64,000 nt of DNA, from contig CAJVGD010000001.1 in NCBI GenBank assembly GCA_910890315.1, forward strand, positions 1,550,001 through 1,614,000, given 5' to 3'. Positions 7,939 to 52,189 of the stretch are shown one piece after another. The stretch comes from Serendipita indica DSM 11827 (Eukaryota > Basidiomycota > Agaricomycetes > Sebacinales > Serendipitaceae). The notes beneath the pieces are model-generated. The model did no database searches. It was not told the origin of the DNA and worked only from the letters and a program-made list of their open reading frames with translations. Position numbers and translations under genes: made by a program. Every line of letters begins with the position of its first letter. Position 1 is the first letter of the stretch.

Positions 7939-10900
7939 TTACTTAGCGAACCCAATAGATAAAAAGCTGGAGTCTGCAGCCGTTGGCTCTGCTCCTGGTG
8001 TCAAGATGGACGAATCTGCATACGGAGTATCCTTCCGGATGTCAGCGCTCAAAGCGAATAGAATCTCTTGAACTTACAGGAGCAAAGGTACTCCGCTCAT
8101 TCTTGGCGCCGTTTACGAACACGCCCAGTGGATCCTGCGCTGTGTCCATTGCGTAGTGATGACCATTAGAACTTCCAATAGACGAAGCGGGAGAGTGAAG
8201 AGTCTGCTGAATGGGAAGTTGTTGGTGATGGATTACACTAGAATAGACCTGTTGCATCCATTTTGCCTGCTCAAAAGCCTCTTCGTACGCAAAAGAGTAT
8301 TGCTCGAGGCCTTTAATGCAGGTTTTGACTTCGGGTTTGCCATTTCGTGCGAGGAACATCCCTGCTGCGTAGGTACTGAAGTGGAGGATATTGGGATCGA
8401 GTCGTAGATAACCATTCGAGGTCAACACGCTTGTCTGCACCATGGTAAATGGAAAGGTTTAAAATTTGGAAAATGACCGCACCAGACCGGCAATACGGAG
8501 AGCGCCTTGTAATGCCTCCTCAAATACCTGCCTTTCCAAGTCTCGCATAACCTCGTACGATAGTTGGCCTTCCTTGGCTTCTCGAACTTGGAATTCTTCG
8601 AGTGCAGAGTGCAAGATGACCCACATGACATGATATTGGGCATCACAAGTGCCTGAGAAACGTGAGTCATGGCCAATAGCAGTAATAAACATCCTTCACA
8701 GGCAGAGACGGCGGCGACGAAATCCCAGTCCGCTTGAAAATTATTGGGGACGCCAACAATGTTAAGATACTTTTCCTTCCATTCTCTGAGCGACTTCATG
8801 GCAGTCTCTAGAACGCGTAGGGGTATCCCGCTCGTGGTGACGTCTGGGCGGGAGAGATTGCGTGCAAGATGCCGAGCTATGTCTGCCATATGGAGAGAGG
8901 ATATCCAACTTTGCTAATTTGAGAGGTTCAGTATCGTGTCTGTCAATGAAACGTTCTCACCATGCTCTAAACAATGTCAGAAGAGAAGTGGTGTGGCGGA
9001 AGCGTAAACTCACCTCTGGCGATGCAAGCTGACTATCATGTGGCAGAAACCCTGGGTCACCCATGAAACTAAAGTCATAGTCATCGTCCTCTCTATCATA
9101 AATGAGCACACGTTTCGAGTTTGAATGCTCGCTCACATGACAGGTTTTTTCTGCGACCAAGTCAGCAAGGTTGGCTATCCCAAATCGACAAGCACTCACT
9201 CTCCAATATACCGACGCATAGGCATCTGCGATACAAGCTTGAAACCAAGCGTATGTCATCCTTCCTCGAGTCTGTTCATCTAATTCGATTAACCGCGCCT
9301 TGCGATTCATCTAGGTACTTTCTTTAGCCGGACAAGCGAGGAACACGCCTCGGTGACCTCACCCCGAGCTCGAACAGGTGCCGAATGCCACAATTGAGCC
9401 AGAAGCCCCTAAATCCTGTGCAGATTTGTAAGAAATGATCGGCTGACCCTGTGCACTGCCAGCTCACCATCGGGATCAGAAGGATTGTCTAGAACCATTG
9501 TTAGCGCCAGATAATTAATGAGATTTTTGATGCGCACGGCTCTGGAGCGGCTCCAAAAGGAGCGCACTGATCGCGTTGTCAACTGATGGTAGTCGATGAA
9601 TTTTCTCGCCTTCGGCAGCTTCCCGCGCGCGCTTAGTGAGAATGCGACATATCCTGCTTCTTCCAGAGTTGACAGAGCGATCCATCACGAGCAGAGGGTG
9701 CTCGGAGAAGCGGGAACCCCATGCTATCACGGTCGCGAGGAGGGCGGCAGGCAAGGGCAGAATCGTTGGGTCTAACGCGGTCTCCGGATAGAGGTAAGCC
9801 TTCAATCGGGTCCGAAATTCTGCCGGATCTAGCAAGGGCATGCGGCTGTGGCCTAAGTTTGATGTTTGAATCTTGGCAAGTGTGGTCCACGGAACCGGGC
9901 TTACATATCTGAAAGTAGACTTCTACGAGGTCGTTTGCGAACCTGAAATGTACACATGGCGTGAGATGAAGCACGAGTGACGGGTGGAACTGGACAAGCT
10001 CACTCAGTCCGAAAGTCATCTGGTTGCAGATGCTGTTTCAAGTCTGTCCAATCGGCATCCGTAGGTCGGGCGACTGCGATTCTAGAGCGTATCATGAAAC
10101 TGCGGTACCCAACCGAGTCTGCACCTCCCACGAACGGCGGGACCGCCACGCCATCATCCGGCGGAGAGAAGAGCCAATCAATGAGCTGCAGGGTCTGGTT
10201 CGTACGCGTGCGTGTCGTGCCAAAGAGCGCTTGATCCGGCGTATAGTGTGATTTAGAGTCGGGCTGAGAATGGGATTGCCTGCGAGTGGCCGTCCCGAGG
10301 GGTGTGTAACCACTTTGGAGTTTGGGGAGTGCGCTGTGTAACAGTGATCAGAGACGGCTCAATGTGGCCGCATGGCTGCACTGACTCCTGTGGGGACACT
10401 TTCGAACGTCGAGAACCGACAGCCCTGCGCTTTTCGCTGGTGATTTGCTGGATCAAATGGCTAATGACCGGTGATGAATTAGAAGTCTGGACCAAGTGAT
10501 TGATAACTCACAGGCACTCTGACCCCTTCAAGATACAGTGCTACAAGTGTTTCAACCACGAGAATCGTTAGACCGCTGCCCTGAGTGATGTATCACGAAA
10601 CAGAGACGGTACCTGGCACTGCGGGCGGCGGCGGTCAGTAAACATTGATTGCAAAATGCGATAAATTTCACCTTTGACTGTCCTGGGACTTGGAGACACT
10701 TGACCTTGCGGGCCCTAAGAATCCAAAGTCAGTCCGGGTTTTGTCATCGATTGCAGGACGCGACCGCTCGGGTCCGAGAGCAGCGGCTATGTGCAAAGGA
10801 GCCGGCGATGTCGAGGACGTCGAGGACATGGAGGGGTGAAAGAGCTCACCTGCATGCGTCACATGCAACATTTTGCTTGCGAGTGGGTGCGCTCGAAGGT

Positions 10901-10977
10901 GCGAGTTGGGTGCTGCCCAGTACGTCTGAGGGAGGTGTCGTCGTCGAATTGTCACTCGGCTGGCGTTTTATATCCAT
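7939..10977 (-). CDS. Zn2Cys6 fungal-specific transcription factor
   Basis: Starts at the ATG at 10977 (MDIKRQPSD). Splicing gives a canonical zinc cluster, CDACRARKVKC, eight residues, then CQHC, six residues, C: C-x2-C-x6-C-x8-C-x2-C-x6-C. The cluster is spread over four exons, one of only 6 nt (10613-10618). Downstream, FANDLVEVYFQI (about 9930) and the segment beginning MPLLDPAEF (about 9840) are typical of the fungal transcription-factor middle homology region (dimerisation/regulatory domain). Later exons are near 9300, 8880 and 8440, each rich in Leu and Ala helices. The last intron (GTAAGT donor to CGGAAG acceptor near 8042) joins in phase to DTPYADSSIL and ends in SIGFAK and TAA at 7939. 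It should bind CGG-type half sites as a dimer in the nucleus; the target pathway is unknown. Exon limits between 8900 and 9900 are approximate. Confidence 0.8.
10613..10618 (-). other. 6-nt micro-exon encoding a zinc ligand
   Basis: On the minus strand TGCCAG is flanked by CCGCAG on its left and GTACCG on its right. Including it joins QSK and HCILKGSEC in phase and restores the fourth Cys of the Zn2Cys6 cluster. Skipping it also keeps the frame but leaves only five of the six ligands. Confidence 0.65.
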
Positions 10978-15128: not shown

Positions 15129-15592
15129 TTGTAGGGTGATTGGGGCCAGATTCGTAGAGCGGTTGCATCTTATGTAGGTTTGATTGTACTGGCTCTGCCT
15201 GATAAATGATGAGTACCAAGGTCGGTCAATATCTGGGCAGAGTTCGTGCGCACATCGGCACGGACTGAACCACGAAGTAGACACAGTTCGCCGGCCCGCA
15301 CCATAGCTGTGAAGGGATATATAGGGGGCGTGAGGACGTTTTCAGCGATTCTGAGATTGGATCAAGTGGTTCAGCCGGAGACGATACGCGAATGGCTCAG
15401 GCAGTAGCGCTCACGCTCGCTCTGTTCGGTGAGGCGATTCGTTCCCATATGCTTCCATATGCATTTTCAGATTATGCGGGATGCCATTGGCTGGGTATAT
15501 GAGAGGTGATGGATTGCGGGATAATGAGCGAGCTGATGAATTAGACAACATGTAATTCGCCATATAGTATGTGAACAAAAGCTTAGAAACCG
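15129..15592. other. Intergenic region, nothing recognised
   Basis: About 460 bp between the start of FAD paralogue A and the end of TOM22. I see no coding exon. It should contain the promoter of the FAD gene. Confidence 0.5.
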
Positions 15593-25010: not shown

Positions 25011-26294
25011 ATGAATACTCCACAGCGCAGAAAACGCGTCGGCTCGCCTGCTGAAGGCGACATGAGCGGGCTGAGTGCCGGTATTGGTGTTGAGCTCTCG
25101 ATGGAGGACAAGGAGCGGTTGATTGAGAATCTAGACATTGAAGGTACACTCTTCTTCCTCTTCTATCAGATTTATCGCACATCTTGGTATGATGGCTGAC
25201 TCTTTTTTTGGAAAACTCTAGTGACGAACCACCGCCGACGGTTTGAGGCGTTTTTGGAGCAGCTGCTCGAGGGCTTTTCGCTCCGACATGGGATGGAAAT
25301 TTCAAGAATTCCAAAGGCGATACGAAATATGAAGATGAAGGATTTCGACGCGTTTGGTGGCAATGTTCAACGGTGTGTGCAGGCCATGGCACGACAGCGT
25401 GTCGCAGAGGCTGATGGGGACGCGAATGCAAAGAAGAGGTTAGTATGGGATGTTGGGAGTCTGGGTTGTGGAATTTTGACGCGTCGTAGGAAATGGCAGG
25501 CAGCGATTCAGGAGGAAGAGATCGAGCGCGCGTCAAAGACGCGTAAGTCGTTTGCTTTCTATTATGAAAAGGTTAGAGTACTGATACTGATGCCTCTAGC
25601 GCGCGTCGCACCACCCTCTCCTGTCAAGACATCCAAGCCCTCTTCGCAGGTGCCAAACTCTTCGCGTGCAAAGGGCTTGTTCCCTAAGACACCGACAAGG
25701 AATATGAACAATGTCAATCCAACCAAGACGGCTTTACATGGCAGCGCACGCAAGGTCATGCCGTCCCCTTCGAAACGCGCTGTCTCCCCTACAAAACCTC
25801 AAAACATGCCCACTAGCTCTACTTCATCGTTTAAACCCGCAAGTACGACATTTAACCCTGTGCTGCCTCCCAAAACACCCACCTACCCACGACGAGTCGC
25901 GCGTGCGGATGAAGCGGTCATGAGCCTCAACGGGACCCCACTGAAATTCCCATCTGCATTCATGTTTCCGCGTGGAGTGGCTCCTATTGTGGATGAAGGC
26001 GAAGAGAGCGAGCACGACTCACACGCCAAGTCGACCGGAGTAGGGCCGGCGTTTTTGGTCCGACGAGATCCGTCTACAGTCTCGATGGGTTCCTCGAGCG
26101 CGTCGACAGCCGTGTCCTCTACAGGAACGCTGATTACCATCTCGACGAGCAAAGGACAGACTGTGCAATTTGACCCGTTGATGGCTAGCCCAGGGTCGTT
26201 GGATCGGATACCAGATCTGACAGAAAGTGCGAAGAAACAGGTCCGTGAAGACACGGCTCGGATCGTGCAGGCGTTGCACAAGTGGCGGTTATAG
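25011..26294 (+). CDS. Borealin-like chromosomal passenger complex subunit
   Basis: Likely the borealin/Nbl1 subunit that, with survivin and INCENP, brings Aurora B kinase to centromeres. The ATG at 25011 opens MNTPQRRKRVGSP. The conserved N-terminal Borealin domain spans exons 1-2: LSMEDKERLIENLDIE, an intron ending at 25221, then RRRFEAFLEQLLEGF and MEISRIPKAIRNMKMKDFDAFGG. The block with RIPKAIRNMKM is diagnostic. Introns at about 25438-25491 and 25543-25600 follow. The remaining 250 residues are disordered, with SP/TP sites (likely CDK/Aurora targets), and end in a short helix (ESAKKQVREDTARIVQALHKW) that resembles the C-terminal piece of other fungal borealins. Stop TAG at 26292-26294. 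Confidence 0.82.
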
Positions 26295-39809: not shown

Positions 39810-40032
39810 TGTTTATTGGGGAATTATCGAGGGATCTGCGTGGGTAAGAGGGCGAGATGGAAGGTCGGAGCGAGGGCGGAGGCTCGTAATCGTAGGTGAA
39901 AGCGAGTGAAATGCCAGTTCAAGGCGCCAGTTTCCCAGTTGTGGGCCGTTGGAGAGCTTAGTGTCGGCGCTGGGCAGCACGACGAGGAGATGGGAGAGTC
40001 CAAAAGGGATGTCTCTATTTGGACTCGATCCC

Positions 40033-42273
40033 ATGCGAACCAAGCGCCGCAACGCCCTAAAAAATGCCAGAAATCAAGGAAAACCAAGGAGCAATGTTAG
40101 AGCAGGCTCTATAAACAAATGGAAGCGGCGCGAGGACATTGAACTCGACGAGCAAGACGCTTGCAAGTGTTTCACCAGTCGCTAATTCAGACGGCTGACA
40201 TCCACGCTAGTCCATGAAAACCGCGATAAAATTCTATTAGAGGGTGAAGAAAACGATATCTCAGACGACGACCTCGGAAACGAAGTCTTTAGTCTCAAGG
40301 GCCTGCCACAGGACCAAGACTCTGAACAAGAGTTTGAAGAAGGTCCAGACGAGACAGACGAAGGTGAAATAGAGGACAAGGTGCCATCAAAATTGAAAAA
40401 GGCGACGAAAGAGAGCAAAAAGAAGTCGAACGCCAGGACCAGTCCAACACCATCATCTTCTGACCAATCCGAAGAAATACAAGAATCCTGGGGACGAAAG
40501 AAGAGCGCATACTACTCTACAAACGCGAAGGACATTGACTCGGACGACGAAGAGGCCCAGAAATTGGAAGAGGCCGAAGTCTTGAGGCTACAGGCTGAGA
40601 CTCGCTCTGGATTGGATGAAGGAGACTTTGGGCTATTGGATGCACCACGCACCCTTGTTTCACCGGCAATGTAAGAGCTACATACCCTTCCTAAGTCAAC
40701 GAAACCCACCCTTCTCAGTCCAGACGCGCCGTCCGTTGCCACGGTTCTTCCTCAAGAACCCGCCGCGCTTGTTCGGCATCTCGAGAAGACAAGTCCAGAA
40801 ACATTGGCTCTTGCGCGTGAATGGGAGGATGTCGTCTTCGATTTGGCGCGGTCTCAACAAGCAATCAAAGAGTAGGTTGCTTGCTCCACAATCCGAACTA
40901 CAGACTAATACCTATTAGACAGGACGCGGAAGCGTCTGCAAGTCCCGCTGCCGGCATGCTTCAACTCTATCATCGTGTGTCCAAGCTCCTCCATGTGGCT
41001 CGTGGGGCTGAAAACCTCTCTAGAGACCTTGCTCACATACGCTACAACACTTGCATTTTATCTACATATGCGTGCGGACCGCAAGTATGCGAGCAATCCC
41101 AGTCTTTTGCAAGACCATCCAATATTGTCACGGCTCCTCACGCTGAAGCAAGCAATGTCGTCTCTCGAGAAACTAGACTTCGGTCCCGATTCAACTGGGG
41201 GGGAAGATGAGTTTGACTCCGAGGATTATGAGGACGATATGCAAGACTTGTGGGGGAATCAGAGCCTGGCGGAGATGGACGAGGACGAATTCCTGGCTTT
41301 GGTACAGGAAGCTCGACAAATGAACGAAAAGGCTACCGCTGCAAGTCAGGACGACAATGAAGAAGACCTGATCTCTCCTCCAGCCAAAAAGGAGAAGAAG
41401 AAAAGGTCCAAAGACAAAGAGGCGAAAAAGGCAAAGAAGCAAAAGGAAACTCAGCCAGTATTTGATCTCCAAGAACCGGAATTCGTCTCCGCATCGAAAA
41501 GAGGCCATCAGCAAAGGCTATGGTTTCCACTAATATTACAGCCTATGGCGAACAGACCTCTTTGGATAACGTGGACGCACTCGATAAATCAGCACGCAAA
41601 AAGTCGCTTCAGTTTCACACCTCGAAGATTGAAAGCTCATCTGCGAGACGTGCCAAGGCCCGTGGCGCGGCGATGGGTGGTGACGATGACATTCCTTACC
41701 GCGAACGAGAAAAGGAACGAGAGTTGCGTTTGCAGAGAGAGAATGCAGCCAAAGTCAAGAAACTTGGCCAAAGTGGCGAGGATTTGGAGGATGCGGAGGA
41801 TGAGCCCAGAGTTGGCAAGAAGCGATCTCGAGAGGACAATGATGGCGATACTAGTCATGCGGACGTGGATGGCTACTACGATCTCGTAAAGCGACAGAAA
41901 AAGGAGAAGAAAGAAGAATCCAAGGCTCATTATGAGGCTGAAAGGGCTGCCGAGAGGTGTGTAGGCTAATAGTGGGGTCCGCATCGTACTGAGATTCTCT
42001 AGGGCTTTGCGAGAGGGAGATCTTGACTCGGCTGCGGATGGACCACGATCCTTGACCCGCGCCATCCTTAAGAACAAAGGTCTCACGCCAACAAGGTCGA
42101 AGAGCGTGCGCAATCCTCGCGTTAAGAAACGTATGAAGTATGACGAGGCAAAGAAGAAGCTCAAGTCTCAAAAGGCCATCTTTAAGGGTGGATTGGCCAA
42201 TACTGGAGGGAGATATGAGGGTGAAACCAGTGGTATTAGCTCCAAAGTGGTCAAGAGTGTACGGCTGGGATAG
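40033..42273 (+). CDS. SAS10: Sas10/Utp3 small-subunit processome protein
   Basis: Nucleolar factor of the SSU processome needed for 18S rRNA maturation. Start at the ATG at 40033 (MRTKRRNALKNARNQ); the ATG at 40009 is an alternative. A GC-AG intron (40163-40210) joins DEQDA to FHENRDKILLEGEE. Acidic stretches follow, then GMLQLYH and, after a 49-nt intron (about 40970-41018), QTLLTYATTLAFYLHMRAD and DHPILSRLLTLK, which form the Utp3/C1D-like domain. Later come KSLQFHTSKIESSSARRAKA and DDDIPYREREKERELR. The C-terminal Sas10 domain reads RAILKNKGLTPTRSK, NPRVKKRMKYDEA, and GETSGISSKVVKSVRL. At 41460-41503 the frame changes: either a weak 44-nt intron (GTATTT to AAAAG) or one missing base in AAAA. 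The stop is 8 bp from that of the convergent gene. Confidence 0.9.
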
Positions 42274-42281
42274 TCTCCAAT

Positions 42282-43048
42282 CTATGTTGATGTTGAAGAT
42301 GATACATTGACTGTATCTTTCTCCTTGGTCAGTTTTTGAAGGTCTTGCTCTACAAAGGGTCAAGCGAAAGTCGAGGAGCTAAAATGATACTCACGAAGGC
42401 CCCAGACGTGTGCTCGAAGGTCGAGAAACTCTGGGGAAAGTGTAAGTATCTCGAACACGTCCTTCGAGGGACATACCGATATGAAGACCATCATACAGCT
42501 GCTTCATTTCGGCCCTCAATTTCGAGACATCATTCTTCTCCGCTGTCCTCTCGGTCAATGCTTTGAGCTCCTTTTCTACAGTCTCTATACGTCGAACGTG
42601 CGCAGAAACCTGGCTAGTGGTCAGCACGCTGGACGGAATGCCCGAGGTCGAAATGCCTTTTGAGTGCTTGTTTGCAGCTCCTGGAAGGGTTTAGAGGTAT
42701 ACAACAGAGAAAAATAAGCGGCATACATGAATACTAGATTGTAAGACCGCAGAAGCCAGCCTATACTCGTCCAGGAGGGCATAACTCGCATAAGCCGAGG
42801 CTAGCGAGAAGCCGAAAAGAAAGCCAAATATACTGACGAGTCGAGGTCAGCTATATTATGTATATAAACCTGGAAATAGTATTGTACCCTCCTCGAACGC
42901 CTCCTACTCGTCGCGGCGGTGGTGCTGGAGCGATTGGCTCTATCGGGGCGACTTTGGCGGCCAACGACTGAGAAGTTGGCGAGTTTAGAACTCGAGTAGA
43001 AGTTGCAAACGAGCGTTGTAGACCACGAGAGCAAAGTCGGCCGCTCAT
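42282..43048 (-). CDS. Predicted mitochondrial membrane protein with coiled coil
   Basis: About 160 residues in four or five exons. The ATG at 43048 opens MSGRLCSRGLQRSFATSTRV, an amphipathic Arg/Ser presequence for mitochondria. After a Pro-rich stretch an intron (GTACAA to CGTCAG, about 42835-42888) leads to IFGFLFGFSLASAYASYALL, one membrane span, then DEYRLASAVLQSSI. The next exon is a coiled coil: AHVRRIETVEKELKALTERT and DVSKLRAEMKQLYDGLH. Two short exons (EFLDLRAHVWGL and DLQKLTKEKDTV) finish the protein at TAG, 42282. The plan resembles small inner-membrane proteins conserved across fungi without a known name. It is divergent from the Mei2-like gene (127 bp between start codons) and convergent with SAS10. 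Confidence 0.6.
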
Positions 43049-43175
43049 GGTTGACGACAAGTTGGACGCAACCCCTACAGAGAATTTTTCACGAGTATCC
43101 GCGCGCACGTCCCAAAATCAAACAGAATTTTTGAAGACATTCAAGACGAGGAAAGGAGTCTAAATCTTGAGGAAT

Positions 43176-45591
43176 ATGCACCGACAACATCCGTACGCTG
43201 GCTACGGCCCACCGCCAGGTCGCAGAGGGGATTCACCGACGGGGCCTGGGCCTGATCGCGGGAGGATGCCAGATAGAGGATTTCGAGGACGAGGGCGAGG
43301 AGTGGGAGGTCCTCCCCCTGGATCGTATGGTTATGAGCCACCGTATCATGGGACTGGAGGCGACAGTCAGTATGGAGACGATCCTTATGACTATCGAGGA
43401 AGCCAGCGAGACGATTATTATCCCCCTGAACATGATCTAGGTATGTAGTTCTCCCCCGAAAGCCTTGCGTCTTGCAAAAAAACAGCGAGCACGCATAAAA
43501 CAATGCACAAAGACCCCTTGGCGCTAAGGACAGTTCCTCGAACATATCCTCTGAAGCACGCTGTGAAATGAGCTGTTCAGCGCATCGATCTATGTCTCTT
43601 TTCCTCCTTGGCTCACGACGACGATTGAACTCATCGTAAATCGCGAATTTGTAGAACAACGAAGACGTCCCCAGAGACTTGAAGAGAAGGCTCACGACCC
43701 GTTAATTGAGGAAAGACTTCAGCGTGAACGGCCGTGTCGCACCCTATTTATTCGCAACATTAAAGTGAGTTGATTCTCTGAACCTATTCGTCGTCTCGTA
43801 GGCTGCCTCAGCAGTATCCTAACAAGTATTTTCTCTAGTATGAGACAGACAGTGCCGAGTTCCGCCGCAAATTTGAGGAATTCGGTGAAATTAAAACGTT
43901 CTTTGATCTCATCAGTCACCGTGGCATGGTTTTCTGCACATACGTGAGCGAATTGATGGTTTCTGTATTCAACGCTGAGCAGGCTGTTAACAGTACGACA
44001 TGCGCGCTGCGGAGAGAGCCAAAGATCGGCTTCAGGGAACAGAACTAGCAGGTCGGCCAGTAAGACTTTTCAAATGAAAGCAGAATGGCTCTCAATGCTT
44101 TCCAGATCGACGTACATTACAGTTTACCGCGAGAGGATCAGAGAAAGTCAGTCAAAACTTTTAGTATCACCAGCAAAATCTCATTGAGAAATAGCGAACC
44201 GAATCAAGGTATCATCATCGTCACACTGATTGATTCACCCTCCAAATCAATCGACGACGTCGAACTCCGTCGCAAACTCCAAACCTTTGGAGATGTCAAG
44301 TCGATTCAGCCAAACAACGGCAGGCCAGAGTAGGTTGACCTTATCACTTTTATGTGTCTAACGACTTATTTCGTAGCTCGCGGATGATAGAATTTTATGA
44401 CACGAGGGTATGGCAGTCTGTTTGTGCGCTACCTGACTACTCACCACTCACAGTCTGCGGATGAAGCACATGGAAAATTGCGGCATCAACCTCTCCAAGA
44501 TGGAATAATGGAGACTGAGTTTGCATTTCTTGGAGATTACATGCCTCCTGGGCCTGCTATGCAAGAGTATGTGCGGGTTTTATGCCAAGGGAGACCCTAA
44601 ACATGTTCTAGGCGTGCGCGGCTAGAGAGAATGCATAACAGAGGGCGAGGACGTGGCAGAGGAGGACGAGGAGGTGGCGGAAACTATGACGATCGTCGAA
44701 GCCGTGATTGGGACGACGATCACTATGGACGAGATCGAGGTCGCATGTCTCCACCTCGGAATGTCGATAGATGGCGTGGTCGGTATGCTCGACTCTTCTC
44801 ATACCTCACTAACAAGATTTTCAGAACGCTCTCCTCCACCACGAGCCAGGAGCAACGGCGATTCAGGAGTGAGCAATTTATTATTACTAGTCAGGTACGA
44901 CACTGAGCCCTCGTTAATAGCCTGAACGCGAAAAGTTGGATCAAGCACGCAAAGTCCAAGAGGTAAGGTGTCATCACCATACCACGGCAGTTTTGCTCAA
45001 TGCATCTATAAGTTACTCGCTGCTCTGAAGCAAACAGGTGGCGGTGGTCCCCCGGCCAGTGGACCTCCACCATCTCAACCCCCAATGCCCTATTCACCAC
45101 CACCAAACGCCACTGGTCCGCCACCACCGAATCCGGCACTCCCACCCAGCATGGCTCAACTCGCAGCTCTCTTGACCCAAGCCGCTCAGCTCCCACAGGC
45201 TCAGCAAGCACAAGCAGCGGCAGCAGCTATTCAACAGTTCCAAGCGGCAGCAGCTACCCCATATCCTCCCCCACCTCAGGGAGGATACAGCACAGCCGGT
45301 CCTCCACCAAATCTATATGGATCACCTCTTCCGGGCCCAAGTGCACCTTACAGTTACCCACCTCCCCCAAATGCAAACCAACCCCCGTACGTTGGTGGTG
45401 GTGGTCCCCCGAATCTTCCACTGCCTCCAGACACCGCGCGATACAACTATCCCGTGCCACCTGGCGGGCCGCCACCACCAGGTGGACAATCCAACCAGAG
45501 TCTTCAAGACATCATGGCTTTATTGGTGAGTAACTGGTAACTCGGTTTTGTAATACCACTCACAAATTACTAGAAACGAACTAACGCGTAG
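43176..45591 (+). CDS. Mei2-like RNA-binding protein with two RRMs
   Basis: The ATG at 43176 opens MHRQHPYAGYGPPPGRR, followed by an RG-rich segment (FRGRGRGVGG). Introns near 43441 and 43768 lead to RRM1: PCRTLFIRNIK, FRRKFEEFGEIKTFFDLI, SHRGMVFCTY, then YDMRAAERAKDRLQGTELAG and IDVHYSLPRED. The RGMV...YYDMRAA pattern and a following SxPRED are those of the first RRM of Mei2/TEL-type proteins. RRM2 has GIIIVTLIDSP, LRRKLQTFGDVKSI and MIEFYDTR. The third RRM of Mei2 is absent; instead an RG/GGG box (about 44635-44690) and a long Pro/Ala/Gly-rich tail follow. The last exon is five codons (KRTNA) after an intron ending about 45573, stop TAG at 45591. A role in meiosis- or differentiation-linked RNA control is inferred. 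There are about ten exons; the small ones near 44800-44960 are approximate. Confidence 0.8.
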
Positions 45592-45728: not shown

Positions 45729-48700
45729 TTATGGTCCCGGAGCTGGTGAACCAGGCAGTCGATTTCGAGCAGGAGGTGCGCCTCCGCGACCAGCTGGTCT
45801 TGCTGGTAGACCGCCTTCGCCAGGCTTCAGTCGCTTTGCCAACGCACCAGGGTCGTTTGAATCGTCCTCATCTCTTGCACGCTTTTGACCAGATGCGCCG
45901 AGTATGCTGAGCTGCCCACTTGGCGACGCAGGTGCACCACCCGCAATGGCTTGATTAACCGCGTCGAGTACAGTGCCTCTTCCCGTACCCGCCGGAGCAG
46001 CTCCTCTTGCTCGAGTAGCTGGTGCACCTCTTGGGTTTGCAGCACCACGACCACGTCCACGAGCCGCCACTGGCGAGGCTGGCAATCCAGCGGCAACCGG
46101 AACAGCAGGTAAAGTCGCGAGAGGGCTCGCCGCAGGCTCAACTTTAACCGGGGAGGGTACAGCCGCTGAAGGCGGAGCGGCATTAGTGGTCGCAGGCGCA
46201 CTGCCGCCTGGGGCCGCTACAGGCTTGGATGCAGCCGTACCTTTGAGTTGAGCAAGCTCGGTCTTGACCCGATTGAATTGCATGTTGAGCATCTTGAGCT
46301 TGGCGTCCGCTTCTCGTCGACCATTCTCCGTTGCCTGAGCGAGCGCTTTGTTATGTTCCTCTTGGATAGAAGCAACCTGCTCGGCAACTCGAGTTTGAAT
46401 AATTGTCTCAAGCTCTGGGTTTTGCGGTAGGCCTTCTGGTCGCTTTGCTAGTTGCTCTTGCAGTGATCGAATCTCAGCTGCTTGTTGTTGCAACTGAGCG
46501 ATATTTGGTTGAGCGCTCGCCAGATTGTTCAGCTGCTGCTGTAACGGTGCGATAGCTGCCGCGACGGCGGCATCCTTTTCCGACTGCAATTGCGCGGTAG
46601 CAGCTGCGACGCGCTGAGCCACAATCGCTTCCACGTCTGTCGAAGTGGATGCGGAAGATGCTAGCGCTGCCTTCTCCTTTTCCAAATTGGTCTACATGAA
46701 ATTCAGGATCATTCGACGACAGGTCAAATGGACAGCTCACGATTGTCTCCCGCTGCTTTGATAAATCGCCCGCCATCTTCCGGGCTCGTGCTTGGAGATC
46801 CTAACAAACTTATAAATACGCTCTCGGCCACAAGACTTTGACCTACTGCAAAGTCCCTTGCGGCTTTGGCGACTTGTTCACCGGTCGCACCAGTGCCCGA
46901 GGGCGCCCCTTTGGCGACCTGCTCCTTGAGAGATGCCAATTCTGTTTGGAGCAAAGTATTCTGCTCTTTAAGTTGGGCGACTTCGGTTCGCAGAGCCTGA
47001 GCCTCAGAGTCGGAAACGACAGGCTTGGATGCATTGGACTTGGTTTGCTCTTCCAACTCGGCGCGCGCAGCCTCCAGGCTTTTGGTGACCAGCTCTAACT
47101 GGGATGTCGCAGAATCTCTTTCCGCTATGAGGGCAGACTGGCGCTCTTTGGCTTGCTCTGCAGTGCTCTGCGCATTTTGGGCCGCGTTTTTCCATTGCTG
47201 TTGAGCATCTTTCCATTTTGCGACCTACTCAGAGTTAGATGCATACGAACAGATAAGGGGCCATGTACCTGGTCATTTGACTTGGAGAGTTGCGCCTTGA
47301 GGGTTGCGACTTCGGCTTCCAATCTCTCGGCTTCAGCCTTGACTTGTTCGTGGACTTCTGGATCGATGCGTTCGAACTGTAGGACGTCAGGATAGTGAAT
47401 ATATAGGGACTGTCGGAACCATACTTTTGTCATGATCGAAGTTGCACGCTTTCGCCACTGGTCAATCGATTCTTGCAACTTTTCGTTCTCAACTTTGACG
47501 TATTCAAGTTCGCTGCGAAGAGTGATGACCTCTTGTTTCAATGGCGAAATTTCCGTTTCTCGAGCGATCAAGTCGTCGCTCTTCTTCTGCAGACGTTGCT
47601 CGAGCTGAGCTTTTTCTTCGCGAAGCACTCGGTTACTTTCGATCAGCGCCGCATTCTCCGAGACCTTTGAAAGCAAAGTCTGTTGGTCATTGGGATTGAG
47701 TGCCGCCTTTGAGGCCATTTCACGCTCCTACAGTTCAATTTTAGTATCCAGCACAAAGCATGCATGGAGAGATACTCACTTCTGAAAGACGTTGACGAGT
47801 AGACTCGAGTTCGGACGTGAGACGGCGTACGTCTCCGTTTATACGAGCATTTTCGCGCTTCAGAAGCTCGCACTGCCCACGAAGCAAGTCTGCATCTCTC
47901 TGGACATGTTTGATAACTTGCTGTAGCTCTTGAACCTGACTGTCGTTGGATGGCGCTTGGATTGCGGCCACAGCGGTCTCTGATAATTCGCCAAGTCGTG
48001 CAGCTTGAGAAGTGACGCTGGCCAGCTGATTGTGAAGGAGAGTGTTCTGCTTCATGAGATCGTCGTAGCTGCAAACTGTCAACAAAGAGTTGGCGAAAGG
48101 CTATAAACCACTTACCGCGAGCGAATCTCGGTAACTTCTTGCTTCAAACTCTCTGACTGAACCTCCCAGCTCTTTTGAGAGGAGGTGAGGATATGTTGAG
48201 CCGACCTTGCTTCAGCTGCGTGACGTTCGGCGGAAACTTGTAAATCTTGAAGCTGCTGCCTGAGGTTCGTGCACTCCTCGAGAGCCTTAGAATGATCGAC
48301 GAGGAGCGCCTGGTACTTGGTTTGCGCCTCCTGTTATGTAAATTAGACCAAGAAGAAGGAAAATCGTATATGATACGTACGTGCGTTCTTTGAGCTTCGG
48401 CGCGGAGCTCTTGATGGATATCTTCCTGAGCCCGTACGGCACGCTCATCAGCGCCGCGAACATCTGCAACAATATCCTCAAGGAACTTCTTCTCCTCGGC
48501 GAATTGAGTTGCCTTGACCTCCATCTCTGACTCGAGCGCCTTCTTTTGGTCGGCAAGCGTCGCCCTTTCTAGATCCAGGAGAGTTACTTTCTCTTGCAGA
48601 GACAAAAGCTGAGCCTAGAGATATTGATCAATGGCAAGATTTGTCAAGCATCAGCGTCACAAACCTCCTTCGTCGCCAGGTCTTGTTGAGTCTTGGCGCT

Positions 48701-51700
48701 ATATTCATCCGTAGATCGCCGCAAGTCTTCGAGTGCCTGTTCTGTTGTCTGGGCCAATTCTTGGTACATGACTGCATTAGCTTTTTCGTTGGTGAGCTCG
48801 AGCTGCACCGTCTTCAACTCAGCACTGAAAATAGTCAGAAAGGAGAGTAATATGAGTATCTCGAACAGACCTAAGTTCGGCAAGTTGGGCGCGGAGGTTC
48901 TCCTCTTCTGAACCACTGGTCATTGCAGGAACAATGCCAATTGTTCCCGGACGACGTTCAAAGACGGCCAATTTCTCCAATGCACGTTGGAGTTGCTTGT
49001 TGAGATCGTCTGCCCGAGCTTGAAGATGACTTTGGTTTGCTTGAGCGACAGCAGCAGCCTCTCGTGACTTGGTACTCTCCTCGGTCTGCACATCACTCAG
49101 ATATAGTGACTTTTGGTTTAATGAGAGGACTCACGAGTTGGGAAAGGCGATGACTGAGATCCCTGATTTCCGCCTCCTTTTCATTGAGTCTTGATCGAGC
49201 AGCGGCTCTGTCGGTCATAATCTCGTCACGCAAAGTAGCACTATTGCGTCGTCAGCTCGTATTCAGAGGCCCAGTACAGAAACACTGACACTTCAGACAT
49301 CAATCTCGTCTTTTCTTGCTCCAAGGACTGTTTGTTCTCTTCCCAAAGCAATGAGAGCTCATCCTTCATGCGGCGATAGTCCTCCAGAGTTTGATTGTTG
49401 CGAGTACGTTCTGCATGCAACTGGCGATTCTCTTGTTCCAAGCGCTCTTCTCGAGACTATAAGCAGAGTTAATACACATCGGCTTCTACACGAACAATAT
49501 ATCTCACCTTTTGCAGAGCCTTTTCGTTTCGTAGCAGCTGCGATTCGCTCTGTGCTTTGGCGAGTGTGCTAGAATACTCTGCAAGCGTCGAAGAAAGCTC
49601 GCCAATCTTGATCTCTGCTTGTCTAACATGAGCTTGGAGCTCGTTATTCCTGGCTGAGAGCGTCTTCAATTCCTCGGTCTGAGCAGTGGTTGTTGACTGG
49701 AGAAGACGATAGCGTTCTACACAATTGTTAGTTGCATAGCCCTGCCACGACTACAAGCACTGACCAAGATGGTATTCATTGGTGGCACGGGCCTTTCCAA
49801 GAGCGACGTGGGCATCCGTAGACTCGGCCTGAGCCTTCTTCAACTCCTTCCGGAGCTCCTCAAAGTCTCTTGCAGTCTCCCGCTTGAGTGCATCCAATGC
49901 GGCGTGCTCCTCGTCGTACTTCTGGTGATAATCGACGCCGCCGTCGATCACCATGACATTGCCTGCCTCAGACGCGCCCGATCCCTGTCGTCGAGAGGCC
50001 ATGGCCTTGAATACGTCTCTTTCCTTGATATACGCCTCCATCTTGGCCTGAGAGGTCTGCAATTGTGTCTGCAGGCTCTCGATAACGGCTCGTGCCTCTG
50101 CCATCATTTCATTCTCCTCATCCGCCGCTGCCTTGCGATCTCGTTCCTCGAGCTGCGATGCAAGAGACCTCGTGAGACTGAGCAGTGTCTGATTTTGTTG
50201 CTGAAGATGTGGAATGCTGCGGAAGAGGACCAAATTGGACGTGACAAAGCCATCACCATCGAGGAGCTCATCGGGTTCTCCAGAAACGTCCTCGACAAAC
50301 TCTTCAGGGAGAGTTGGGTCAAGGGCACGAGCAAGTTGATGCATCAGTCCACGGACTTGACGACTGAGATCTACTTGTTGCTTATTGAGCAGGTTGACTT
50401 CCTTTTGCTTGCTGGCAAGGGCATGTTGCGCCTCGCGTGCCGCACGAGCTTGCTGATCACGGTCCTCCATGACCTCTGAGAGCTGTGTAGCAAGTTGACG
50501 TGCTTCTGCCGAAACGCGCTCGTACTCCAAACGTTGCTGAGTGAGAACAGGTGCCTACGACATATAAGCAAAGAAGTAATAGCATATAGCCCAAAGGTAC
50601 TCACCCTATCCTGAATCTCGTTGAAAATATCGTTGAGCGTTGTTTCGAGTCGCTGTTTCTCCTGCTTCTCCTGCTGAAGTTCTTTCTGAAGTCGCACATA
50701 GTCGGCATAGACTTCGGTGATAGATCTGCCTCCTCGTTGGAGCTTGGACACGATGGAAGCAGTCGGGCTGAGCATCAAGGAAGAAACTCCACCGGGCGCG
50801 GGCGATCCAGGTGTCATGGCACGGTTGAAGGATGTTTCGGCCATGGAGAATTCACCTGCCTGTGCACGCTGCAAAACCTCCTCCAACTCTTCCACCTTTC
50901 GTTCTGCGCTATCTGCTCGCTCTCGTTCGCGATCTGCCTGGGCAAGGAGCGTTTCCTCGCGCTTCGTCAACTCTCTCCTAATAATCTCCTCCTCCCTTTC
51001 AATCTCGGCTATACGCGTCTTTGCATCGTCTGCGATTCTCTCATACTTTTCGAGCAAATCTTTGCAAGCTTGCATTTCCTCTTGGAAGGCACGCTTGTTG
51101 GCCGCTTCTTCGCTCTGCAAGTCGCGGTTCTTCTCGAGAGCTTCGTTGAGCTTGCGTTCCATTTCGTGATTGGTCGATTGTATAGCCCGTAGACGTTCTG
51201 CTTCTCGATCATAGTCGCTTGTCTTTTGGTCGAGTTTGCTTTGCAGCGTCGTCACTTCCTCGGTACGCGCTCGTCGCAACTCTGTATAGCGTGATAGCTG
51301 GTTGGAGAGTTCGTTGTTGAGCGAGTCGTTGCTTTCCTGAAGTAGATTGATTTGTTGCTCGAGAGTGGAAATCTTAAAGTGCTGGGTGGCCTCTGAAGAC
51401 GATGTTTCGGCGAGTTTTGCTTGCAAGTCTGCGACGAGTTTTTTGACATTTTGAACTTCGCTCCTCAACTCTGTATTTTCACCTGTCATCAAATAAGATT
51501 TGAGCGTCCTCGCATATTTAGCCCATAACATACTGTGCAGTCGCGTTTCTCGATTGAGAGCCGCGTCGAGCGTGTCTGTCAATGTCTTTTTCTCCCTCTC
51601 ACGCTCTTCGATTCTGATTCGCAGCTGCTCTGTTTCGTGTGTAGAAGTTGTGGACGTTGAGGCGAGCGTGGCGAGCTGATCTTGGATGGCCGCTCTGCTC

Positions 51701-52053
51701 TGCGCGAGCTCTGCGTTTTCCTTTTTGACGGAATCGAGCTCTCCCTTGAGTGACTCGAGCTGCTCGGTGTATTCGACGCGAAACGTCTCTTGCTGGTGCA
51801 AAGTTTGCTCAATGTCAGCGTCCTTTTGAGCCAACCGCTCCTCCCAGTCTTGAAAGGCGGCATCAAACTGCTCCTTTTGGGAGATTAATAGACGATAGAC
51901 GGCGAGTATTGTGTCCGGAGAGGGCGCGGACCAGTCGTTGGGCCCTAACAAGGCGTCCAAGGATGATGTTGAGACATCTTCTGGGAGCTGTAGCTGGATA
52001 TGTGGTGATGACTGTTGTTCTTGTGCTTGTGCGTGACGCGTCTGCGGGGCCAT
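45729..52053 (-). CDS. MLP1: Nucleoprotein TPR / Mlp1-like nuclear basket protein
   Basis: Very long coiled-coil protein (about 1,950 residues) forming the nuclear basket; it tethers mRNP surveillance, SUMO protease and spindle checkpoint factors. The ATG at 52053 opens MAPQTRHAQAQEQQ. Almost the entire length is heptad repeats rich in Glu, Gln, Leu and Lys. The Tpr/Mlp1 signature is at about 50640-50740: GGRSITEVYADYVRLQKEL, followed by LETTLNDIFNEIQDR. Roughly fifteen short introns interrupt it (for example near 50555-50610, 49680-49765, 48320-48380 and 47225-47270). The C-terminal 200 residues (46200-45729) are disordered, Ala/Pro/Gly-rich with RGRGRGAANPRG-type boxes and a final PGSPAPGP, as in other fungal Mlp proteins. 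It ends 138 bp from the convergent Mei2-like gene. Confidence 0.85.
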
Positions 52054-52189
52054 GAGCTCCCGTCTGTTGGCGTCGAGTCCAAGACAACGTTGGCCTCTAT
52101 CAACCACCGGCGCAGCCACTCGGAAGGGCAATTAAACACTCGGAAATGTTATTTCAACATGGAAATACAAGTAATAAATTGCTCTCAAG

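Follow-up and report, generated by a model that had tools for sequence, protein, structure and literature searches.

The question raised by this locus is whether six bases on the minus strand, TGCCAG, are spliced as an exon of their own and so supply one of the six zinc ligands of a fungal Zn2Cys6 regulator. The window, by which we mean the whole stretch of 64,000 nucleotides (C1:1550001-1614000), belongs to a genome of 24.7 Mb in 55 contigs, and the analysis rests on this one genome, taken to be fungal from its Zn2Cys6 genes (16 matches) and its short introns. Checked on the sequence, TGCCAG, its acceptor and donor flanks and its reading frame were found as an earlier note had described them. 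Joining exons 1 to 5 (Table 1) gave a translation of ...ACDACRARKVKCLQVPGQSK-CQ-HCILKGSECLHLIQQITSEKRR, with cysteines at residues 39, 42, 49, 58, 61 and 68. The claimed arrangement C-x2-C-x6-C-x8-C-x2-C-x6-C was thus confirmed by translation of the spliced exons. The consensus spacing of Zn2Cys6 clusters is C-x2-C-x6-C-x(5-9)-C-x2-C-x6-C, and the spliced model falls within it. With 6 nt between two GT-AG introns, TGCCAG also lies well inside the length range of a micro-exon, at most about 27-30 nt. Translation without the six bases bore out the further statement that skipping preserves the frame at the cost of the fourth cysteine: Cys58 and Gln59 disappear and a five-cysteine product is left. 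Retention of intron 3 leads to a stop shortly past CQ; with intron 2 retained, the frame shifts and runs into a stop. When intron 2 (10619-10671, minus) is read through in frame with exon 2, it encodes FCNQC, a Cys-x2-Cys that looks accidental.

Table 1. Exons of the hand-built gene model and the introns of the zinc cluster, in the order of transcription (positions are those of the window).
Feature	Length	Positions	Strand	Content	Splice sites and motifs
Exon 1	128 nt	10850..10977	-	presumed start codon to CDACR; Cys39 and Cys42	
Intron 1	135 nt	10715..10849	-		GTGAGC...TCTTAG
Exon 2	43 nt	10672..10714	-	ARKVKCLQVPGQSK; Cys49	
Intron 2	53 nt	10619..10671	-		GTGAAA...CCGCAG; CTGAC 20 nt before 3′ splice site
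Exon 3	6 nt	10613..10618	-	putative micro-exon TGCCAG, Cys58-Gln59	flanks CCGCAG / GTACCG
Intron 3	72 nt	10541..10612	-		GTACCG (weak donor)...TTGTAG; CTAAC 31 nt before 3′ splice site
Exon 4	29 nt	10512..10540	-	HCILKGSECL; Cys61 and Cys68	
Exon 5	75 nt	10386..10460	-	begins HLIQQITSEKRR	
Exon 6	330 nt	10004..10333	-		
Exon 7	38 nt	9905..9942	-		
Exon 8	315 nt	9538..9852	-	part of weak Fungal_trans match (protein residues 211-423)	
Exon 9	21 nt	9468..9488	-		
Exon 10	53 nt	9363..9415	-		
Exon 11	111 nt	9200..9310	-		
Exon 12	14 nt	9137..9150	-	omission breaks frame	
Exon 13	79 nt	9014..9092	-		
Exon 14	6 nt	8961..8966	-	second micro-exon candidate AGCATG, Ser-Met	
Exon 15	214 nt	8700..8913	-		
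Exon 16	170 nt	8483..8652	-		
Exon 17	357 nt	8078..8434	-		
Exon 18	93 nt	7939..8031	-	contains stop codon	acceptor ends AAG, uncertain

Beyond the cluster, exon borders were placed by visual inspection of open frames and GT-AG sites, guided as well by a presumed resemblance to related basidiomycete proteins. The resulting model comprises 18 exons (10977-7939, minus) and encodes 693 residues, its frame staying open from the presumed ATG to the terminal stop codon; its six shortest exons measure 6, 6, 14, 21, 29 and 38 nt. Of the 17 introns, all but two (introns 1 and 3) have lengths of 44-61 nt, and skipping of TGCCAG would create a joined intron of 131 nt against this range. Pfam Zn_clus (PF00172) matched the whole protein with 27.3 bits and a 59-residue piece with 32.3 bits, both above the cut-off of 21. 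Fungal_trans (PF04082) gave a weak match to the middle of the protein (18.4 bits, E 0.0012), under its cut-off of 23. A self-trained gene finder called no gene across 7939-10977. Rfam at the gathering threshold returned no match in the window, and a search for U1 RNA found none here and none in 14 control genomes either, an outcome that carries no information. Elsewhere in the window, two open frames have domain matches, one to a TPR-like nucleoprotein at 50371-52131 (minus) and the other to the N-terminal part of Nbl1/Borealin (43.9 bits) at 25221-26294 (plus); the AT skew is opposite in sign at 40001-44000 (0.161) and 48001-52000 (-0.166).

The strength of the splice sites was evaluated with a small self-trained model of 119 introns from 264 kb, started from a seed with a purine at donor position 3 and G at position 5. 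An unseeded training run yielded 22 introns with G, A and C at position 5 in 59%, 32% and 5%; the seeded run yielded 41 introns with 85% G at this position, and served as the starting point for the 119-intron model. The preference for G is thus partly imposed by hand and the scores are partly circular. GTGAAA would be less odd under the unseeded run, whereas C at position 5 and G at position 6, as in GTACCG, are rare either way (5% and 5% unseeded, 1% and 3% in the 119-intron model). The GTACCG donor of intron 3 scored -0.5, below all 119 training donors, and the CCGCAG acceptor of intron 2 fell at about the 2nd to 3rd percentile of the training set. The outer sites were stronger, with 5.7 for GTGAAA (21st percentile) and 8.1 for TTGTAG (87th percentile). 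G occupies donor position 5 in 14 of the 17 model introns, the exceptions being GTGAAA, GTACCG and the GTGAAG of intron 15. This last donor scored -0.7, as low as GTACCG, so that introns required by the frame may likewise carry weak sites, if the gene model is right there. A branch-like CTNAY motif precedes the 3′ splice site in 12 of 16 model introns examined, introns 2 and 3 among them; since 69 of the 119 training introns also carry it, its presence around TGCCAG is weak support. The weak sites on both sides of TGCCAG render skipping plausible and fit inefficient inclusion. Two other attempts at a splice model were dropped: one built from the coding scores of flanking sequence proposed 23 introns that shared no clear consensus, and self-training with too low an intron penalty produced thousands of nonsense introns.

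TGCCAG is not the only very short exon in the model. The AGCATG of exon 14 (8966-8961, minus) sits between two 47-nt introns with exons 13 and 15 outside. The donors of these introns are good (9.9 and 7.9), the acceptors middling (5.8) and weak (2.3), and the second intron is without a CTNAY motif. In 20,000 shuffles of this 100-nt stretch, a 6-nt exon flanked by YAG and GTRAG as acceptor and donor, a criterion picked post hoc, arose in 0.045%; the rate was 2.3% for 6-nt exons of any kind and 8.6% for exons of 3-18 nt whose length is a multiple of three. Because omission of AGCATG keeps the frame, its inclusion is unforced. Omission of the 14-nt exon 12 is a frameshift, and the gene, if expressed as modelled, therefore relies on short-exon splicing anyway.

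A search of solved structures aligned Cys58 with Cys28 of Gal4 and with cysteines of Lac9 and Put3. In Gal4, the thiolate of Cys28 is common to both zinc ions. As the equivalent of this residue, Cys58, and with it the exon, would be needed for DNA binding. Removal of the exon weakened the match to Gal4 (1d66) from E 0.014 to 0.044, and two Put3 matches (E 0.023 and 0.036) were gone from the list at E ≤ 1; the Lac9 match was no worse without (E 0.0018) than with the exon (0.0023). A search of the same genome with the cluster (4 matches, 3 candidates scored) retrieved a single further locus besides the gene itself. That locus, at C1:147539-147655 and 47% identical, reads RCKHCISLGVPC unbroken, against KCQHCILKGSEC here. 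With the middle region as query, only this gene matched (4 matches, 2 candidates scored). The genome contains 16 Zn_clus matches in unspliced frames, a search that leaves out the TGCCAG gene itself, and Cys4-x2-Cys5 is unbroken in 15 of them. The remaining one (L006, G000:C14:393782-393847) ends two residues past Cys4; the rest of its cluster may sit beyond an intron or be absent. A break just before Cys4 was seen in none of the 16, in a search that by its nature misses split clusters. Two of the matches (L001 and L029, G000:C17:14940-15029 and 15342-15443) lie 402 bases apart, both with a 461-residue open frame, and possibly represent one regulator with two zinc clusters. The 12-base CQHC pattern occurred at 68 places (34 per strand), compared to 40 for a reversed control. 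Queries with the middle region and the cluster against viral contigs, and with the cluster and the C-terminal part against genome contigs, gave pattern matches of which none was confirmed; these collections cover viruses, bacteria and archaea, and the outcome says nothing on fungi.

We then considered how else the fourth cysteine could be obtained, or be dispensed with. All paths from exon 2 to exon 4 were enumerated in which introns begin with GT or GC and measure at least 35 nt and no more than one middle exon is used. Of the resulting 207 paths (67 without a middle exon and 140 with one), 45 were open and in frame, and among these a loose six-cysteine pattern was produced by three with GT donors only and by six more with a GC donor. 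The three GT paths use either the 6-nt exon, which leaves exon 2 uncut, or a 16-nt (10612-10597) or 22-nt (10618-10597) exon joined to exon 2 shortened to 10679. The earlier note had held that the pattern appears only if TGCCAG is an exon; that exclusivity is lost, while TGCCAG stands as the best of the tested six-cysteine paths to the fourth ligand. The two longer exons retain all six cysteines with a middle spacing of C-x9-C or C-x11-C, their Zn_clus scores reach 29.9 and 29.0 bits, and their second donor GTGATA (0.9) is slightly above GTACCG. These scores are nevertheless lower than the 32.3 bits obtained with TGCCAG, the highest among the four forms scored (the three GT paths and the skip), and the splice-site sums, 12.4 and 11.7, fall short of the 14.6 reached by the 6-nt path, the donor GTCAAA (1.4) replacing GTGAAA. 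That the cell takes its fourth cysteine from either of them appears highly improbable. Constant skipping, giving a five-cysteine non-canonical cluster or marking a decaying gene, would use the two better outer sites and one intron fewer; the skipped form has a site sum of 13.8 for its single intron and, at 25.7 bits, still exceeds the Zn_clus cut-off. After a charge for the additional intron, the sum of 14.6 for the two introns of the 6-nt path gives inclusion no advantage over the skip. Against constant skipping stands the rarity of such an exon in randomised sequence, for which the 131-nt interval separating exon 2 from exon 4 was dinucleotide-shuffled 20,000 times (outermost six bases fixed, introns of at least 40 nt). 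An in-frame 6-nt exon of any content arose in 11% of the shuffles, one starting with a Cys codon in 0.66%, and an in-frame exon of at most 60 nt giving the strict six-cysteine pattern in 1.07% (3.2% for the loose pattern). These rates of 0.66-1.07% indicate that the TGCCAG exon is unlikely by chance, at about 1 in 100. Furthermore, the reading frame is open everywhere else in the model, and we judge constant skipping to be very unlikely.

A different possibility is that inclusion of TGCCAG is varied, so that the gene makes one form that binds DNA and another, almost as long, that has five cysteines and cannot bind. The frame-preserving skip, the weak sites on both sides and the glucose-dependent 20-nt micro-exon in Xlr2 of Trichoderma virens (PMC11121469, in its available part) all speak for regulation of this kind; weak sites do not by themselves demonstrate regulation, and we regard it as unlikely here. 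An extended version, in which the six-base cassette toggles the zinc ligand Cys58, one gene giving both a regulator that binds DNA and a partner of almost the same length that does not, and in which the AGCATG cassette could bring the number of in-frame isoforms to as many as four, appears distinctly unlikely. If it were true, the non-binding partner could titrate cofactors or dimer partners.

The reading that we favour, at a probability of roughly 0.7 on the DNA evidence, is that in this fungal Zn2Cys6 regulator TGCCAG is a real micro-exon and is included most of the time. The need of the frame for the 14-nt exon 12 and the open frame of the model count in its favour. The spliceosome would recognise not the exon but the two short introns beside it, introns 2 and 3 (53 and 72 nt), and would remove them in succession. 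At an intron length near 50 nt, splice sites would pair across the intron and exon size would carry little weight; such intron-wise recognition would allow a 6-nt exon to be tolerated. In the available part of a review, splicing efficiency under intron definition follows the length of the intron and not that of the exon (PMC8624252). Similarly, for micro-exons of C. elegans, the accessible text describes a dependence on PRP-40 that is relieved by a longer exon or by shorter flanking introns (PMC8378409). The exon would be needed for the DNA-binding protein, and transcripts that skip TGCCAG or retain intron 3 would be non-binding by-products.

As far as the accessible parts of the reports go, both very small exons in fungi and a micro-exon within a Zn2Cys6 cluster have been published before, which lowers the novelty of the present case. 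The closest parallel is Xlr2 of T. virens, in which a 20-nt micro-exon holds two of the Zn2Cys6 cysteines and is included without glucose; it too lies within the cluster and bears cysteine codons, and it had been missed by the annotated gene model (PMC11121469). The Xlr2 exon differs in that its length is not a multiple of three and that it carries two cysteines, whereas TGCCAG has 6 nt, one cysteine and keeps the frame. Xlr2 is also documented, in the same portion of that paper, by glucose-dependent RNA-seq and conservation in the genus, whereas TGCCAG is known from the DNA of one genome. Judged by titles in the open-licence literature searched, Xlr2 was the only fungal regulator with a micro-exon, and no precedent for a frame-preserving loss of a single zinc ligand was met in that literature, part of which was accessible in excerpt. 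In Fusarium CYP621A, a 1-nt exon has read support and many orthologues, and the same excerpt mentions an 8-nt exon in Phanerochaete (PMC12940212). CYP621A resembles the present case in that a tiny exon lies in a conserved motif and that an overlong apparent intron serves as an argument; it differs in that its exon has 1 nt and belongs to an enzyme gene, for which a switch is not proposed in the part available (PMC12940212). The P450 genes of Phanerochaete chrysosporium contain micro-exons of 2-10 amino acids with a shortest exon of 6 bp (PMC1184071, available in part). They share with TGCCAG the exon of 6 bp and a fungal gene family with small introns; as described there, they have no role as zinc ligand in a DNA-binding domain. 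The suggestion that six bases come close to the smallest exon a spliceosome can define was overstated in view of the Fusarium and Phanerochaete exons (PMC12940212, PMC1184071). Plant micro-exons in AP2 and K-box domains, as described in the accessible section of PMC7714060, are likewise placed in transcription-factor domains, but in plants and in other domain families. Two further papers (PMC3990503 and PMC4014442) were set aside as precedents because the term, in the passages available, concerns an aligner setting.

If our reading is right, annotation pipelines discarding exons of this size would label the regulator broken or assign it a non-canonical zinc cluster, and similar regulators would be miscounted. 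TGCCAG would then offer a clean case of how splicing in a fungus manages a 6-nt exon whose sites are weak, and would bear on whether the loss of a metal ligand through splicing serves as a means of control.
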